Of a stretch of 22,553 nt of DNA, positions 8,276 through 22,478 are shown one piece after another (the first letter of the stretch is position 1; every line of letters begins with the position of its first letter). The translations under genes and the position numbers were made by a program. This DNA is from a virus: positions 1 through 22,553 of the IMG/VR virus record IMGVR_UViG_3300028146_000038, one strand, 5' to 3'. The notes under the pieces were generated by a model that did not search any database, was not told the origin of the DNA, and was given only the letters and a program-made list of their open reading frames with translations.

Positions 8276-10414
8276 CAAATTGTTACTCCACATAGTGGGG
8301 AAAGGTCATTTCTGCCTTTCTCTGCAATTTCATTTTATAGTTGCAGATCGGACTATCGCATCCCATTTCTGGGCCTCTGGACTTAGTCTCTCAGGCTGCA
8401 CATGTAAAGCGGCTTTACATTGCTTGCCCCTTGTTACCCCATCGGGCCTCCAAGTCAATCACCAAAGGTTTAATGGCCACTTGTCAAGATGGCCACGGCT
8501 AGACGCTCGGATACCCAAGCTAACACCATTCATATCTAGCCTAAGAGGGCGTGTTATTCAGCATAACAATCTCATTATAGCATTTCTCACGATACTCTTT
8601 CTCTTTTTCTGGTACTTTTGCCAATCCATTTGTAGGATTGTAATTTCTGCAAAAGTTGAGTATTTTTAACGCTTGAACTGCCTTTATTTGAAGATAAGGA
8701 ATGCATTTTTTAAGAAATTCAATCGCTTCTCCACGAGATTGAATTGAAAATCTAAATGCTGATCCTCTCAAAGCCGTGTTAGCTTTAACAATCGAAATCC
8801 CTCCATACTCACAATTTGAAAGGATGTAATTTATCGATCTTTCACTAACCATAGTTAAAATTATTTTTGGTCTAAACTTAACCAAATCTGTTTTTTGCCT
8901 ATTTTGCCCAGCTTTTCGAACAGATCTTTCTATAGAAAAAGAACCATCGGTGTCCATTAATCCTGCTACATAAGCCCAAAAATATGGATCTTCGCTGTTT
9001 TTGCGATTGATCTCCTTACCTTCAACAGACTCAATCTTTCTACTAAGATTCAAATCTTTGCAGGTTTGATAGGAAATTTCTCCGCTTTCAGGATTATCCA
9101 AAAATTTTAAAAGTTCATTTGCAGAATCTTGCTTGAGAATGAGATGTTTTGTAACTTTATATAAAAAGTTTTTGCAACCATCAAATCCTTGAAGCATCCA
9201 TTTCCACACTACACGGTAATTTTCTTTTTTAGGCTTATCACTTGCTACTGTTCCTCCAAATAAATTATTTAGATAAACGCAAGACTGTCTGAATGAATTA
9301 TGAAATTGAATTAAAGGACAAAGTTTCCCTCTTGGACCCACTCTAATCCCTATATTTCCATCTCCATCGATCAAACCAGCTATATAAGCCATAATTTCCT
9401 TTTCTTCTGGATCTTTCATACAACCTCCCTGTGAGGTTATATTATAGACCCTCCAACATTATGCTGCAAGTCTAAAACCCTCTTGATCCTGGAGGATCAC
9501 CTGCTATTGATGATACACCCAGTTCCAAAAAAAGCCATCTGCGCCATCGATGATATCTCTCTGTGGCACCTGTGCCGGCGGCACTCTGTTACTTCTATTG
9601 ACCCCTTGCAGCTACAAGGCGGGGAAACCTCTTCGGATCTCCCTCCGTGATTTCATATATTGTCACGGATCAGACTATCGCATACGCTTTCGCGTCCAAT
9701 GAACTTAGTCGTTCAGGCTGCACGGTTTCCCTGCTTGCCCCTTGTTGTCCTCCGTCTACGCAGCCAGGAGTTCCAAGTCAATCATCATCGGTTTTACATC
9801 GACACGCCGGGGTTTATCGATACCTGCATTACCCAATTGAATGGTCGGTGGCTGGAGAGCCCTCGGCCTCATAAAACGCATGGTCGTGCCGCCGTTAGGT
9901 GGCATACTGACCTTATCACATCATTCTGTTACTTGTTGACCAATGTAAAGCCGCTTTACATTGGCGGGCCAAATCTTCTCAGCTGGCCTCCCTATGTTTC
10001 CATAGGGTTCAGAGCACCGCATCCTCTTTCGAGGTCTTCTCGCTTGCTGCGTTCAGGCTGATTATTTAGGTATGCCCAAATTGGAAATTTGTCATTATCT
10101 TTACAACGTATCCAACTATCTTCACATCCCATATATCGAATTAAAAATTTTGAATTTGTAGATTTATCCCAAACCCATATTAATTCTCCATGAGGAGGTC
10201 TTATTTTAGAGATTTCATACCATTTCATAATCTTGCCCCTTGTCGTCCTTCCTTAATTGGTTAGGATTTTCAAGTCTATCAGAGAAGATTTATTCACGGC
10301 ATGTCATTCGTTTACCGTGATGTAGTTCATCGTAGGAGTTGGAACGTAGAGCATCGCAGGCGCAAGCGACTGCAGAATCATCGGCCCCAAATTTCCTGTC
10401 GTCGTAATCGACAT
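7657..10414 (-). CDS. Major capsid protein (N4-gp56 type), split by three group I introns; exons 10414-10314, 9921-9816, 9581-9448, 8275-7657
   Basis: The spliced gene is 960 bases, 319 residues, a normal length for this family. The ATG at 10414 has GAGG five bases upstream. Exon 1 begins MSITTTGNLGPMILQ; exon 2 gives MPPNGGTTMRFMRP and IQLGNAGID; exon 3 starts PPAQVPQRDIID; exon 4 starts RQAEDLILRDYI and holds GGSNGDNPTNL, GIEGMDRFGTGPIRSSYF and SEWGSVFNVRILTS. This order matches N4-gp56-type coat proteins as I remember them. Splice sites come from P1 pairings and a shared intron end. Phases agree (101+106+134+619 bases). However, exon 3 read straight has stops at 9506-9504 and 9461-9459: conserved residues (AQMAFFGTG and IIN) are in another frame. 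The copy is thus broken, mis-sequenced or recoded. Confidence 0.82.
8403..8419. repeat. Palindrome TGTAAAGCNGCTTTACA, copy 1
   Basis: This copy has G at the centre and flanking AT pairs extend it to 8402-8420. It sits in the P6-type loop of intron 3, between the ACAAGGGGCAAG block and the CAGCCUGA block, and would cap that stem as a hairpin. Confidence 0.8.
8541..9419 (-). CDS. LAGLIDADG homing endonuclease (intron-encoded)
   Basis: The 292-residue protein has two LAGLIDADG motifs, as in single-chain enzymes: YIAGLIDGDG at 12-21 and YVAGLMDTDG at 150-159. Asp20 and Asp158 are the likely catalytic acids. Each motif is followed by a beta-rich half domain with basic residues for DNA contact. 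Such enzymes cut intronless alleles and drive intron spread. The ATG has GGGAGG four bases upstream, only 28 bases into the intron. The last codons (Asn-Thr-Pro-Ser-stop) coincide with the internal guide sequence of the intron, so the coding end is fixed by the RNA fold. The frame is intact, so the enzyme may still be active. Confidence 0.93.
   Translation of the reverse strand: MKDPEEKEIMAYIAGLIDGDGNIGIRVGPRGKLCPLIQFHNSFRQSCVYLNNLFGGTVASDKPKKENYRVVWKWMLQGFDGCKNFLYKVTKHLILKQDSANELLKFLDNPESGEISYQTCKDLNLSRKIESVEGKEINRKNSEDPYFWAYVAGLMDTDGSFSIERSVRKAGQNRQKTDLVKFRPKIILTMVSERSINYILSNCEYGGISIVKANTALRGSAFRFSIQSRGEAIEFLKKCIPYLQIKAVQALKILNFCRNYNPTNGLAKVPEKEKEYREKCYNEIVMLNNTPS
9582..9815 (-). ncRNA. Group I intron 2 in capsid gene (no ORF)
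   Basis: P1 is exon AUCGAU with intron GUCGAU (9803-9798), ending in the U-G pair. P10 is exon 3 (bases 2-7, CGCCGG) with CCGGCG just before the guide. P7 is GACUA with UAGUC near 9709-9705 and 9677-9673, around a P8 hairpin with stem ACGC/GCGU and a GAAA loop. ACAAGGGGCAAG is at 9745-9734. The intron starts AAAC and ends AAGUAACAGAGUG, like intron 1. At 234 bases it is the most compact of the three and probably closest to the ancestral form. Confidence 0.87.
9941..9963. repeat. Palindrome copy 2, perfect 10-bp arms
   Basis: CAATGTAAAG, a CCG loop and CTTTACATTG form a perfect hairpin. It lies in the P9-type region of intron 1, where intron 2 instead has a different hairpin (CCTTG/CAAGG). 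The inner 17 bases match copies 1 and 3. Confidence 0.85.
9992..10228 (-). CDS. Intron-1 ORF, possible DUF551-like small protein
   Basis: The 78-residue frame starts MKWYEISKIRPPHGELIWVW, with Trp and Pro placement resembling DUF551-type phage proteins, and has later FPIWAYL. No nuclease motif (LAGLIDADG, GIY-YIG, HNH) is visible. The ATG follows the conserved intron sequence, where AAGGGG may serve as ribosome site seven bases away. About 24 C-terminal residues are encoded by the 3' catalytic core (P7, P8, P9), so their sequence is set by RNA structure. Either a passenger gene inserted in the loop with a fortuitous tail, or a remnant of a larger insert. Confidence 0.5.
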   Translation of the reverse strand: MKWYEISKIRPPHGELIWVWDKSTNSKFLIRYMGCEDSWIRCKDNDKFPIWAYLNNQPERSKREDLERGCGALNPMET

Positions 10415-12506: not shown

Positions 12507-12708
12507 CATAATACACGATATCAGACTTAAAGTTGTTTAAAAGAAGCGTCCAAGAAGTTTTTAGCCTATCCATTGGATAGGAAGTGTTTAAAAATTAAGA
12601 TAATATGACTGATTAACTAATTTTTACATATAAAATTACCGATATTTATTGATATATATCAATTTAAAAGACATATATGAATTGCTTATTAAAATCATAG
12701 GAGGTTTT
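12507..12708 (+). other. AT-rich gap before the collagen-like gene
   Basis: No gene is seen. The gap holds a 7-bp hairpin (CCTATCC/GGATAGG, 12565-12581) that may weakly end the preceding operon, and a perfect 16-bp palindrome ATTGATATATATCAAT (12648-12663), 45 bases before the next ATG, which could be an operator. Confidence 0.45.
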
Positions 12709-13383
12709 ATGTGCAAAGAAAATAAGTATACAGAACACTGTTGTATACAGGGTCCACAAGGTGTTCCAGGACTACAAGGTCCACAAGGTATTCAGGGAGT
12801 ACCAGGATCTCAAGGAGTAAAAGGACAAACTGGATTACAAGGTCCACAGGGTATTCAGGGAGTACCAGGAAAAGATTGCGATTGCACAGGAATTGCAGAT
12901 CGTCCATATGCAAACGTGTATGCATCGGTTGCTCAAATTATCCAACCATTTAATGTTCCAGCTGTTGCAGATCAAGTTCTTTTTGATCTTCAAAATTCTG
13001 TTTCTGTTGGTGATTTTGATCTATCTCTAATGAGCACAACTGGAGATTTAAAATTCCTCAAACATGGTATTTACCATTTACAATGGCAATTACAGGCTCG
13101 TATTACTTCTCCAGTACCAGTACCAGTTCCTTCATGGTCATTTGGTTTTTGGTTCGACGGTGTTCTTGTGCCAGGTTCAATCTACTCTGGATTTACACAA
13201 GCTCCTGGAGATGATGCTTGTCATTCTACTGGTGACGTTATCTTTGAAGTTAAAGCTGGATCATTGTTGAGATTGAGAAATACATCAATTTCTCAAGTTT
13301 CATTAAATCCAAGCGTGACAGGATCTGTATTTCCTATCACAATAGCTTCAATTAATATTGAATGTCTAAAACTCCTTCCTTAA
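12709..13383 (+). CDS. Collagen-like protein with C1q/BclA-like head
   Basis: The ATG at 12709 follows AGGAGG by four bases; upstream in-frame starts lack this. The 224-residue protein has an N-terminal Cys cluster (C2, C11, C12), 14 uninterrupted Gly-X-Y triplets (residues 15-56, mostly GPQ, GIQ, GVP), then C57 and C59. The cysteines would lock a trimer at both ends of the triple helix. The C-terminal 160 residues are beta-rich (FLKHGIYHLQWQLQARI, SFGFWFDGVLVPGS, VIFEVKAGSLLRLRN) like the trimeric heads of C1q/BclA-type proteins. No signal peptide is present, so it is likely a virion or cell-lysis-released trimer. A role in adhesion is inference. A GC-rich hairpin follows. Confidence 0.88.
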   Translation: MCKENKYTEHCCIQGPQGVPGLQGPQGIQGVPGSQGVKGQTGLQGPQGIQGVPGKDCDCTGIADRPYANVYASVAQIIQPFNVPAVADQVLFDLQNSVSVGDFDLSLMSTTGDLKFLKHGIYHLQWQLQARITSPVPVPVPSWSFGFWFDGVLVPGSIYSGFTQAPGDDACHSTGDVIFEVKAGSLLRLRNTSISQVSLNPSVTGSVFPITIASINIECLKLLP

Positions 13384-13411: not shown

Positions 13412-13494
13412 TTCCCCAAACACAAGGTACGAGGTCATCCTATCATTCGTTCTTGATTAAATCAAAACTTTTCTGATAAACATAGATTTTTTGT

Positions 13495-13566
13495 TCCGTT
13501 GTAGCTCAGGGGTAGAGCAGTGGACTGTTAATCCATTTGTCGGTGGTTCGAAACCATCCAGCGGAG
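13495..13566 (+). tRNA. tRNA-Asn (GTT)
   Basis: All arms pair: acceptor TCCGTTG with CAGCGGA, D stem GCTC/GAGC, anticodon stem GTGGA/TCCAT with loop CTGTTAA (anticodon GTT), and T arm GGTGG-TTCGAAA-CCATC. CCA is not encoded. It could supply Asn decoding for Asn-rich structural proteins, or mark a former integration site. Confidence 0.92.
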
Positions 13567-13587
13567 TTCTCAAAATACGAGGTACAA

Positions 13588-17555: not shown

Positions 17556-18830
17556 CTAGAATATGGATGAAGCTTTACCAAATCTCTCATTCATATATTT
17601 GGAAGCATTATGCGCATAAGGCTCATACACGGCCACTTTGTGTGTAGAAATGACGTAACGCAACGCATCAATTGCATGGTCATCCTTCTTTAAAGGCTCG
17701 TCATGTCCTCTTTCAATGCTTTTGTGGTCCCAAACATAGCTTTCAACTTCACGTATCGTATTCGTACATTCTTGGCATATGAATAGAGCACCTCTCTTCA
17801 TTTCATTCGTCATCTTATAAATGCCGTCTTCTACTTCATTGTTGGCATCAATGACAGCCATTCCCTTCTTCCTCAATTCTGTCTTAAATGATGCAGCACT
17901 TGGGTCAATGTAAAGCAGCTTTACAGAATAAGGTTCTAACATCTTTTCTATGTCCTCAGCCATCTCAAAGTTGGTTTTTTGCCTTTCCTTCTTTCGGTGA
18001 TCCCAATAGTATTCCTTCTCAACCCACATAACTTTTCCTGTTTGCGAGTTCTTACCACTGTGTACACCGATGAGGAGGCAAACGCATGGATTAGATGCGC
18101 CGTAGTCTATACCTGCAACCCAATAATCTGCAGCAGCTGGCGGCCTACTAACGACATGAAGTTTTCTGTCAAAGAAATCAAATATTGCACCTTCTGCTAG
18201 ACACCAAAGACCGAGAACATTTCTCTTATAGAATATACCGCTTGAAGCCTCTCGTATGCGGTCCTTATATTCACCAGTAATATATGGATTGTCATCGAGC
18301 TCGAAGTGAAGAGCATAGTAATTTGAGTTTCCCTCTTCAGCTTTATCAATCCAGTCTCTTAGCTTATGCTTAGGATGACTTGGGTTCATGGCAGCGAACC
18401 CTTTACTATGTGGAAGTGACAAACGGCTATCTATCATGTCGATGATAGATTCTGGGTAGAGCGTCATCTCGTCGCAATAGACCAAAGACATGGTTAGACC
18501 CTGAAATGCACCAAGGGCACCTTCATCTTTAGCTCCAAGTACTGTGATAATCTTATCTCGGAAGTAAAGTTTCTTTCCGGACCACGTACAAAACGGCCTA
18601 AAAATGGCCATCTCTGGGGACTCCATAAGAAGTCGCACTATATTTCGATATGCCGTATCAAATGTATGACCGACAATATATATCTGTGAATCTGGACATC
18701 TAGTTACAGCATGCATAAAGGCAAAGACAGTACAAACCGTCTTTCCCGTTCGAACAGCGCCGTGAGCCAAATTCCATTTAGCCGTAGCACCAGAGATAAA
18801 TTGCATCTGCTTTTTGCTAAATGGGTCCAT
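17556..18830 (-). CDS. terL: Terminase large subunit
   Basis: The packaging ATPase and nuclease, 424 residues. Walker A is GAVRTGKT at 24-31, Walker B LVYCDE at 116-121 (Asp120, Glu121), and GFAAMNPSHP at 144-153 is the coupling-type motif. The RNase H-fold nuclease has GIDYG (Asp242), YIDPSAAS (Asp309) and KKDDHAIDALRY (Asp384, Asp388). All key residues are present. The ATG follows the TAG of the small subunit directly, so translation is coupled. Codons for Lys-Leu-Leu-Tyr before Asp309 contain a 17-bp palindrome shared with two introns of the capsid gene. Confidence 0.96.
   Translation of the reverse strand: MDPFSKKQMQFISGATAKWNLAHGAVRTGKTVCTVFAFMHAVTRCPDSQIYIVGHTFDTAYRNIVRLLMESPEMAIFRPFCTWSGKKLYFRDKIITVLGAKDEGALGAFQGLTMSLVYCDEMTLYPESIIDMIDSRLSLPHSKGFAAMNPSHPKHKLRDWIDKAEEGNSNYYALHFELDDNPYITGEYKDRIREASSGIFYKRNVLGLWCLAEGAIFDFFDRKLHVVSRPPAAADYWVAGIDYGASNPCVCLLIGVHSGKNSQTGKVMWVEKEYYWDHRKKERQKTNFEMAEDIEKMLEPYSVKLLYIDPSAASFKTELRKKGMAVIDANNEVEDGIYKMTNEMKRGALFICQECTNTIREVESYVWDHKSIERGHDEPLKKDDHAIDALRYVISTHKVAVYEPYAHNASKYMNERFGKASSIF
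17909..17925. repeat. Palindrome TGTAAAGCNGCTTTACA, copy 3 (inside terL)
   Basis: This copy has A at the centre and lies in coding sequence just before catalytic Asp309 of the terminase. Its arms match both intron copies exactly. Confidence 0.8.
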
Positions 18831-20511: not shown

Positions 20512-20907
20512 CTATTTTTCAGAAATATTTTCTGATGCCAATTTGTCGCATTCTTCAAATGTAACACGTAAAGCATAGACTTTAGGACCACCATATTTCT
20601 GATCAAATTCAAAAGTCAGGTTGGGATTACTGTCGGCCCTTCCCGATCTTGCGTCTCCCGTTATCCATTCCGAAATGCAATCTACTGACCATTTGAGTGC
20701 ATAGCGAAGATTGTCATGGGAATCTAGTTTTCTTGGGGCGATCCTACAAAAAGTGATCTTGCATGGAAGCTTTGGCTTCTTGCTAGCTAAAAGATGAAGG
20801 CTAATCGTTTCTCGTTGTAGCTTGTGATAAGCGGCTCGAACCTTCCAATTATGGGATATATTCTGCTCAGACTTAATCCTTAAAGGAATTTCTATCTCGT
20901 ATTTCAT
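20512..20907 (-). CDS. RusA-like Holliday junction resolvase
   Basis: From the ATG at 20907 the product has 131 residues; a TTG two codons earlier is possible and neither start has a strong SD. RusA-family signs: N-terminal basic beta strands, KITFCRIAPRKLDSHDNLRY with Asp62 and Asp65, LKWSVDCISEWITG, GRADSNPNLTFEFDQKYGG with Asp92, and a final beta strand (VYALRVTFEE). RusA dimers cut four-way DNA junctions during phage recombination and before packaging. Spacing of the acidic residues fits the family. It lies downstream of the replication genes. Confidence 0.82.
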   Translation of the reverse strand: MKYEIEIPLRIKSEQNISHNWKVRAAYHKLQRETISLHLLASKKPKLPCKITFCRIAPRKLDSHDNLRYALKWSVDCISEWITGDARSGRADSNPNLTFEFDQKYGGPKVYALRVTFEECDKLASENISEK

Positions 20908-20965
20908 TGACAACGCTTTTGTAAAATGTTAGCTTGACAAACGCATATTGTCTTCCTTGTGTGGG

Positions 20966-20997
20966 GGCCTTCTGGTTCAGGGCCAGAGGGCCTTTTT
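20966..20997 (+). terminator. Forward intrinsic terminator with no forward gene before it
   Basis: A 10-bp stem (GGCCTTCTGG/CCAGAGGGCC, one wobble) with a 7-base loop is followed by five T on the plus strand. All genes nearby are on the minus strand. TTGACA occurs at 20907 and 20934, but the -10 boxes are poor. Confidence 0.75.
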
Positions 20998-21027
20998 CAT
21001 TTCAACAATCCGGAAATTCCGGATGAT

Positions 21028-21888
21028 TCATTCTATCTTGAAATATCTTTCCATGTACTCCTGAAACTTTGGATCATCAAATCGATAAGTCGATGAGGCT
21101 GGACCCTGACAAAAAAGAATGCCGTCTTCCAAAACTTGAAATGATGTGTATTTTCCAATGGTATGCATTTTCCCTTCCTTGTCCAACTTCCTATATTTCT
21201 CATACATTCCTTTCGATTTTGACTTAGATTTCGACACAGGCGGTTTCTTTTGCTTACAGCACCAAATTAAAAGCTGAGCCAGGCTCTCCCTTGGCTCTTC
21301 ATCTTTGGCGAAATCTAGGGCCAAAAGAATGCGTTCTAGAGGGTATCTGCTTAGATAGATCTTATCGTCTTCAGTTAGATCTTCGATATCCAGCAAACAA
21401 TCCGGAATTTCCGGAGGATTCCTTTTTGGGCGCAGATCTTGCCTTTTCTTAGAAGAAGAGACAACGACAGGCGGCGAAGCCGCTCTTGTTGTTGTTTCAT
21501 TATTTATTTTAGCTTCATTACTTACTAGTGTCGCGTTTTCCGGGGCCGAGCTTGCCGGGGCCGGATTTCCCGTCTCCGGCAAAGATTTGTTAATTGGTGT
21601 CTCGTAAAGAATGTACTCAACCTCATTAAAAGAACCTTTGTTTGATCTATGCTGCTGCCTTACGCAATAGCCATATTTTATGAGCTCATTAAATGCCGCA
21701 CGAAGCGAATCTCGCCCCTCTTTTAAAACCGTGGTCATTTGCTGTATATGAAAACTCCACCCATCTGGCTTGCTCATGCAATATGAAAGCAATCCCTTTG
21801 CTTTCAAGGACAAGTTTATGTCTTCAAGAAAGTTTTTGTTTATGATGACATATGGATGGTCTTTATCCTTGGATGTTCGGACTAGCAT
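21028..21888 (-). CDS. Replication initiator / replisome-organiser-like wHTH protein
   Basis: The 286-residue protein has an N-terminal winged-helix domain with YVIINKNFLEDINLSLKAKG, LLSYCMSKPDGWSFHIQQM and LKEGRDSLRAAFNELIKYGY, the pattern of phage replisome-organiser and plasmid initiator proteins. A low-complexity linker follows (residues 105-160), then YPLERILLALDFAKDEEPRE and LAQLLIWCCKQKKPP, a Ser/Lys run (SKSKSKSK), and a C-terminal part that is unfamiliar. The ATG overlaps the previous gene by 7 bases with AGG upstream. Role in opening phage replication is inferred. The related short gene upstream shares the SL-x-x-KG-[LV] element. Confidence 0.75.
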   Translation of the reverse strand: MLVRTSKDKDHPYVIINKNFLEDINLSLKAKGLLSYCMSKPDGWSFHIQQMTTVLKEGRDSLRAAFNELIKYGYCVRQQHRSNKGSFNEVEYILYETPINKSLPETGNPAPASSAPENATLVSNEAKINNETTTRAASPPVVVSSSKKRQDLRPKRNPPEIPDCLLDIEDLTEDDKIYLSRYPLERILLALDFAKDEEPRESLAQLLIWCCKQKKPPVSKSKSKSKGMYEKYRKLDKEGKMHTIGKYTSFQVLEDGILFCQGPASSTYRFDDPKFQEYMERYFKIE

Positions 21889-22295
21889 GATTTACCTACT
21901 TTTTCAAGGATTGACACAGCTTCCATAAAATATTTACAATCACAAAGCTCATTGATAAGAGCACTTATTTTTTCTTCGGAAACTTGTTTGAAGTCTCCAC
22001 CAGATTCTAGAAAGCAATAAACACCCTTGGATTCAAGGGATATATTATGATTCTCAATGAGATCTCTTAAAATATGGACACATTCATCATTTTCATTCTT
22101 AAGAAAACCGTTCGTTTTCAGGATATCGATCGCTTCCAAAATGCTTTCTCTTGAAAGAAAGCCAAGGATTTCTTCTAAATCTTCTAAAGGACAAGACATT
22201 CCAAAAATACAATCGTAAACAACAGCAGCATCCAAACCATATTTTTCTGCAAAATCCATGCTAAAGGAAAGATAAGGGCCTGAAAAATTCTCCAT
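21882..22295 (-). CDS. Small protein related to the initiator wHTH
   Basis: The ATG at 22295 follows AAGGAGG by five bases; 44 further upstream codons have no such site and are excluded. The 137-residue product is acidic. It has FAEKYGLDAAVVYDCIFGMS, a helix pair LEEILGFLSRESILEAIDIL, then KTNGFLKNENDE, typical of winged-helix replication proteins, and in the second half NISLESKGVYCFLESGG, which parallels NLSLKAKGLLSYCMSKPDG in the next gene. It probably works with that initiator. Confidence 0.7.
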   Translation of the reverse strand: MENFSGPYLSFSMDFAEKYGLDAAVVYDCIFGMSCPLEDLEEILGFLSRESILEAIDILKTNGFLKNENDECVHILRDLIENHNISLESKGVYCFLESGGDFKQVSEEKISALINELCDCKYFMEAVSILEKVGKSC

Positions 22296-22331
22296 GACAA
22301 CCTCCTTATATAAAATTTGTTGAAGAGGTGG

Positions 22332-22360
22332 TTGACAAGAATTCGTTGAAATGATAGATT
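22332..22360 (+). promoter_or_regulatory. Candidate forward promoter for a small RNA
   Basis: A perfect -35 TTGACA (22332-22337), 17-base spacer and TAGATT (22355-22360). The spacer contains GAATTCGTTGAA, whose reverse complement lies at 22423-22434. Confidence 0.55.
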
Positions 22361-22434
22361 CACAGACATAACTTTCTGGTGAGAATTTAAAATATTCTCG
22401 TCTATGAATCGTTGAAAGGGGTTTCAACGAATTC
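22339..22434. repeat. Inverted 12-bp repeat GAATTCGTTGAA / TTCAACGAATTC
   Basis: The arms at 22339-22350 and 22423-22434 are perfect. The second arm is also half of a 9-bp hairpin. One arm lies inside the candidate promoter spacer, so it may be an operator or may block promoter-proximal folding. Confidence 0.65.
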
Positions 22435-22478
22435 CTGTCCTCCAGGGGGCGTCCTTTAACGGGGGCGCCCTTTTTTTT
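22367..22478 (+). ncRNA. Candidate structured small RNA, about 112 bases
   Basis: Between the forward promoter and terminator there is no forward ORF of note, but three hairpins: GAGAAT/ATTCTC (22381-22399), TCGTTGAAA/TTTCAACGA with a GGGG loop (22409-22430), and the terminator. It starts beside and is transcribed away from the minus-strand initiator operon, overlapping that operon's 5' region. Confidence 0.5.
22447..22478 (+). terminator. Forward intrinsic terminator
   Basis: Stem GGGCGTCC/GGGCGCCC (8 bp, one wobble), loop of 8 bases, then eight T. It ends the candidate small RNA; no forward protein gene precedes it. Confidence 0.85.

Follow-up and report, generated by a model that had tools for sequence, protein, structure and literature searches.

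A predicted antisense RNA over the replication-initiator leader of an uncultured phage, and a candidate ribosome-site switch among its relatives

The initiator operon and a divergent predicted RNA

The DNA analysed here, which we call the window, is an entire IMG/VR virus record of 22,553 bases that is classed as linear and is probably a fragment. Around the feature under study the main genes lie on the minus strand, and they include an operon that encodes a replication initiator. A promoter and a terminator predicted on the plus strand delimit a short transcript that points the other way.

21028..21888, minus strand: replication initiator, 286 aa, with an HTH_36/DnaD-like N-terminus
21882..22295, minus strand: first operon gene, 137 aa
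22301..22306, minus strand: Shine-Dalgarno AGGAGG of the first operon gene, predicted to be sequestered when leader arm A (see below) is blocked
22332..22360, plus strand: predicted antisense-RNA promoter, TTGACA-17-TAGATT, extended -10
22367..22478, plus strand: predicted antisense RNA, about 112 nt, non-coding, its start placed from the promoter
22444..22478, plus strand: intrinsic terminator with eight T, -18.4 kcal/mol

The initiator matches PHROG replication initiation and DnaD-like families (best E 2e-20); its best Pfam match, HTH_36, falls below the Pfam cut-off, and profile comparison gave no match to RepA_N. The 137-aa gene ends in a stop codon that overlaps the initiator's ATG, so that translation of the two is probably coupled. 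The initiator is followed by smaller genes, then by the terminase (17556-18830) and a portal of P22 type. The window holds no minus-strand promoter-like site from the operon to the contig end. The operon leader is therefore probably read through from beyond the contig end, and would in that case be complementary to an RNA made from the plus strand.

A preliminary description of this locus had proposed a transcript of about 112 bases without an ORF, delimited by a consensus -35, a fair -10, three hairpins and a strong terminator with eight T, and running away from the initiator genes across their leader. All of these elements hold up on computation. The -35 (TTGACA, 22332-22337) and the -10 (TAGATT, 22355-22360, with TG in front) are spaced by 17 nt and match at 10/12 positions, and the promoter score of 11.6 is higher than that of all 60 dinucleotide shuffles of the 130-nt context (mean 5.65, sd 1.53). 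The RNA predicted from this promoter (22367-22478, 112 nt) ends 75 nt short of the window's right end and folds at -41 kcal/mol, as against -26.3 (sd 3.2) for shuffles (z -4.6; 0/200 equal). Its hairpins fall at about 22374-22408, 22409-22430 and 22447-22470, with one 4-bp helix besides, and the terminator stem occupies 22444-22473, with its eight T at 22471-22478. No plus-strand ORF of at least 50 aa crosses the predicted RNA, whose sole ATG opens a frame of three codons, and no Rfam 15 covariance model scores above its gathering cut-off (best ncS025, 24.2 bits vs 46). The outward direction and the antisense relation to the leader follow from the geometry of the sequence, given the predicted promoter and terminator. 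On these computational grounds we regard the existence of an antisense RNA here as highly likely, and the models indicate that this uncultured phage very probably makes one of about 112 bases against the leader of its replication initiator.

Other features of the window deserve mention in their own right. The gap that separates the initiator from the gene at 20512-20913 contains a second strong terminator (20963-20995, plus strand, -21 kcal/mol) that is directed away from that gene, and two TTGACA hexamers (TTGACAACGC, TTGACAAACGC) stand just before it on the same strand. Outward terminators likewise lie ahead of the orthologous gene in L011, L013, L018, L019 and other relatives, and the one in the window possibly belongs to a second antisense RNA of similar style. 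Palindromes downstream of the initiator (TCCGGAAATTCCGGA) and within it (TCCGGAATTTCCGGA), at 21009-21024 and 21400-21415, together with GC-rich CCGGGGC repeats in the initiator gene (21532-21580), are candidate origin or iteron sites. A free-standing LAGLIDADG homing-endonuclease gene (8541-9419, minus strand) sits amid structural genes, and a phage tRNA-Asn (GTT; 13494-13567, plus strand), on the strand opposite the main genes, adjoins a collagen-repeat gene (12649-13383, plus strand).

Outward terminators and promoters in related phages

A DNA search of phage records with the 20.9-22.55 kb part of the window returned no match, and the only near-identical contig, L002, stops inside the first operon gene; relatives, of about 40 kb, were therefore gathered via the terminase. 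This yielded 89 distinct contigs with at least 2.5 kb upstream of the terminase, and in 36 distinct contigs the leader region could be delimited by calling genes mechanically and applying a fixed rule. Phylogenetically, these relatives do not count as independent, and each RNA start is a predicted one. Their common layout is a leftward gene block opposite a rightward block, the latter with a small HTH gene first and then the initiator; in L015 the HTH gene matches HTH_3 (2e-6).

A terminator directed away from the initiator recurs in the gap between these two genes in 23 of the 36 contigs. Outward terminators number 33 matches vs 3.0 expected from dinucleotide shuffles of the 36 contigs, and terminators in the sense direction 4 vs 0.8. 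The automatic rule leaves 13/36 relatives without one, including L013 and L045, which carry a terminator that the rule overlooked; L020 and L004 have the hairpin, scored in the opposite direction. Where relatives were mapped, the terminator stands downstream of the HTH gene, in the gap, rather than within it. An outward terminator in this place ends no annotated gene, and is thus sensible if a short transcript begins between it and the initiator. As a control, a scan of similar kind recovers tO, the lambda oop terminator. Four cultured phages with related initiators were inspected and did not have this leader architecture, and several other contigs with relatives of the initiator have outward terminators within 900 nt.

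Next to 28 of these terminators, the top-scoring sigma70-like promoter of the antisense strand exceeds that of the sense strand (p=0.0008). Antisense-strand promoters also exceed shuffles, modestly and in a search that is noisy in AT-rich DNA (p=0.018, n=28), while sense-strand sites are no better than shuffles. In a diverged subgroup (L016, L017, L018, L019, L023, L024) the -35 and a spacing of 16-17 nt are retained and the neighbouring positions have changed; between subgroups, MAFFT sets the terminator stem one column out of register. The predicted RNA starts mostly 50-70 nt from the AUG; in many leaders that distance is 50-58 nt and the RNA measures 58-80 nt. Judged from sequence, then, the outward terminator and its same-strand sigma70-like promoter are conserved in position and not in sequence. 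The loop of the ribosome-site hairpin, CAAC (usually TCAAC), is retained in L024, L023, L017, L016, L018, L019, L020, L194 and L196. It is the complement of the antisense promoter's -35, so that a single stretch carries two constraints.

Predicted alternative pairing of the leader

A 23-nt inverted repeat (22329-22351 / 22422-22444) that the preliminary description did not include connects the promoter of the RNA with its 3' half, and a third, shorter copy lies at 22406-22417. Read on the minus strand, the three copies are arms of the operon leader.

22422..22444, minus strand: leader arm A, the pre-emptor, which the antisense RNA would cover; assigned from the inverted repeat and the A:C stem
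22406..22417, minus strand: leader arm B, which would form a local hairpin with A; its loop reads CCCC here and GGGG in the antisense RNA
22329..22351, minus strand: leader arm C, partner of A or of the ribosome-binding region, overlapping the antisense promoter; assigned from the inverted repeat and folding

The repeat is explained by its promoter-side arm being leader arm C. The A:C stem in the window is long, with 30 paired nucleotides vs 8.4 in shuffles (0/100 equal), and the switch score of 11.1 nt (vs 2.5) is matched by 2/100 shuffles. When arm A is covered, folding has GAAUUCUU of arm C pair with GAGAAUUU of codons 2-4, around a helix that holds the Shine-Dalgarno, and the openness of the Shine-Dalgarno falls from 0.30 to 0.09. 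The AUG is left in an internal loop and opens from 0.48 to 0.91, for which reason the whole-site accessibility change is not below that of shuffles; the ribosome-site effect in the window is thus mixed and weaker than family-wide. The CCCC loop of arm B and its GGGG counterpart in the RNA are a plausible first contact between the two RNAs.

Across the family, initiator leaders were folded with and without the part covered by the RNA. A recurrent fold emerges in which the covered part supplies arm A, whose partner is an arm C that is located between the RNA start and the ribosome site and hence overlaps the RNA promoter; with arm A covered, the predicted folds pair arm C with the Shine-Dalgarno and start region (R). 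In L196, the clearest case, the partner of C (TGCATTTTATGTTTCTCTTGG) is A (CCAAGAGAAAC...AAAATGCA), and CTCTTGGATTTTAA of arm C can instead pair with TTAAAATCAAGGAG, hiding the Shine-Dalgarno. Alternative stems of the same kind, built from different sequences, are seen in L017, L018, L019, L024, L045, L056 and L059.

Blocking lowers ribosome-site accessibility by a mean of 0.06 (-0.06), vs +0.04 when the leader is randomised outside the ribosome site (Wilcoxon p=4e-6, n=26 leaders); an earlier variant of this test gave p=2e-5 (n=26). C:R pairing is in excess (p=6e-7, n=26), and 4.2 nucleotides vs 1.9 change partner from A to R (p=0.009, n=26). A:C pairing alone gives p=0.09 (n=26), with little A:C stem in about 9 of the 26 leaders. 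Starts were misplaced in L040, L041 and L076, and the analysis was accordingly repeated with the demand that the start be clear of the AUG. Twenty other leaders of the same phages, given a nominal block, have no excess in this direction, and initiator leaders differ from these controls in both the switch (p=0.004) and accessibility (p=0.013). At the level of the family, binding of the antisense RNA is thus predicted to favour a stem that hides the ribosome-binding site.

Comparison with known systems

That antisense RNAs control replication initiators is textbook knowledge for plasmids. Among plasmid systems, RNAI of the staphylococcal RepA_N plasmid pSK41 is a counter-transcript of about 83 nt which, on binding, has been proposed to bring about a stem-loop that hides the ribosome-binding site of rep (PMC5703833). 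Both it and the phage RNA would thus be counter-transcripts to an initiator leader that act by induced ribosome-site sequestration. They differ in setting: pSK41 RNAI belongs to a plasmid with a RepA_N initiator and has its target about 100 nt upstream of the translation start, whereas the phage RNA occurs in a tailed-phage family, has its promoter inside the switching arm, and often faces a coupled first gene. From sequence we would say that the phage RNA works like pSK41 RNAI and is not a member of its class, the initiator having no RepA_N match. The antisense RNAs pT181 RNAI and pIP501 RNAIII likewise target an initiator and oppose a pre-emptor to the 5' arm of a regulatory stem-loop, but these attenuate transcription, as described for the pT181 pre-emptor system (PMC5703833), whereas the stems in the phage leaders cover the ribosome site.

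Among phages, the closest map position is that of lambda pO, which lies between cII and O, directs transcription away from O and has tO as its terminator; the described target of OOP is cII, and pO also affects replication via interference with pR (PMC3985674; PMC5869508). Lambda OOP shares with the RNA described here its short outward form, a promoter just upstream of the initiator, a small regulator alongside, and a 5' hairpin followed by a terminator, and the predicted elements reproduce the OOP arrangement of promoter, direction and own terminator. It differs in that its known target is cII and not O, and the available text says nothing of an induced stem that would sequester the ribosome site of O. 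The RNA predicted in the mapped relatives does not overlap the 3' part of the regulator gene upstream, and no likeness to OOP is evident when the sequences are read side by side. Since the target differs, the phage RNA does not appear to be a member of the OOP group.

ArrA of Bacillus subtilis is an antisense RNA over the dnaA 5' UTR that reduces dnaA expression (PMC12112137); it shares antisense coverage of an initiator leader with the phage RNA, but is chromosomal, and its abstract has no word of a ribosome-site switch. Extrachromosomal mycobacterial prophages use RNA-based origins in phages without repA (PMC7157519), a plasmid-like mode of phage replication, whereas the phage family studied here has a protein initiator as the predicted target. 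These two are the nearest conceptual neighbours that we found. The available portion of a 2025 review of phage sRNAs (PMC12197685) has none shown to act against a replication initiator.

Proposed mechanism and alternatives

Taken together, the comparative and thermodynamic evidence makes an antisense or copy-control-type regulator, as the preliminary description had suggested, the best-supported reading of this predicted RNA. Specifically, we think it reasonably probable, on the strength of the models, that a cis-encoded antisense RNA of about 112 nt controls translation of the initiator operon by induced sequestration of the ribosome site. The operon mRNA would read into its leader from the far side. 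Where the antisense RNA is absent, A would pair with C and leave the Shine-Dalgarno free, so that the first gene would be translated and the initiator, presumably by coupling, along with it. If expressed, the antisense RNA would begin just past arm C, run through A away from the initiator and end at its terminator. Its binding to A would free C to pair with the ribosome-binding region and switch translation off. With RNA output proportional to genome copies, such repression would amount to negative feedback on phage DNA replication.

A different reading makes the promoter, and not the RNA, the part that matters: its collision or interference with transcription entering the initiator operon would tune origin use, as proposed for lambda pO, and the RNA would be a by-product or would target the upstream gene as OOP does cII. 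The map position equals that of pO/oop, loss of lambda pO lowers replication via pR interference (PMC3985674), and the same program recovered lambda tO. We nevertheless consider this reading unlikely, because it leaves unexplained both the conserved exclusivity of A:C and C:R pairing and the lowered accessibility of the ribosome site, and because the mapped relatives have the terminator after the HTH gene rather than inside it. We think it quite improbable that the RNA has trans targets among other phage mRNAs or among host mRNAs, or that it serves as a primer for leftward DNA synthesis. It does adjoin the initiator, and OOP was formerly proposed as a primer (PMC3985674, PMC12197685), an idea since abandoned for OOP. 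Relatives, however, show near-complete turnover of the RNA's sequence while complementarity to its own leader is retained.

The repeats could also be protein-binding sites, operator or origin, with the hairpins and promoter incidental. Three (T)TCGTTGAAA-like copies are indeed clustered at 22339-22434. The motif is not clustered beyond chance elsewhere in the window, though, nor common to the relatives, whose repeats differ in sequence and spacing yet keep the same pairing logic, and protein sites would leave the outward terminator unexplained; we give this reading very little credence. A genome-wide operator role for the repeat motif was rejected, the window having no further exact 13-nt copy and relaxed matches staying within chance. 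A search of viral contigs for the palindrome TCGTTGAAA-N4-TTTCAACGA gave 4 contigs. Finally, the outward terminator might serve only to keep stray antisense transcription out of the regulator gene upstream, with no dedicated RNA. Outward terminators precede another gene too in this phage family (20963-20995 in the window), but the terminator here is preceded by a near-consensus promoter that scores above all shuffles, and together with the statistics of the RNA-leader switch this makes shielding hardly credible as the whole account.

Lifestyle and significance

Among 21 relatives of about 40 kb, none has a tyrosine-recombinase match and one has a serine recombinase, so that the integrase types searched are nearly absent and the phage family seems mostly non-integrating, either virulent or extrachromosomal. 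A ParA-like match occurs in one of the 21, with a second below the cut-off; with partition genes so rarely seen, an extrachromosomal lifestyle stays a possibility, and a copy-control RNA would be expected if it applies. We offer as a speculation, more doubtful than probable, that this widespread family of uncultured phages of about 40 kb persists as extrachromosomal plasmid-prophages, in which a fast-evolving antisense-RNA switch on initiator translation sets copy number and gives every phage an RNA incompatibility group of its own. Three related contigs (L090, JAGXTH010000002.1; L088; L089) come from MAGs, a 40-kb one from Simkania (Chlamydiota) and two from Bacteroidetes/Bacteroidales. These bins conflict as a guide to the host, and we claim none.

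If the antisense switch acts as proposed, a plasmid-type translational switch at the position of OOP would link the control of plasmid and phage initiators, and would account for the way in which a phage that apparently does not integrate keeps its own replication in measure. The family also offers many natural versions of the switch, in which A, C and the ribosome site change jointly. These could serve as a data set for the evolution of RNA switches, and may be useful for the specificity of superinfection and incompatibility as well.
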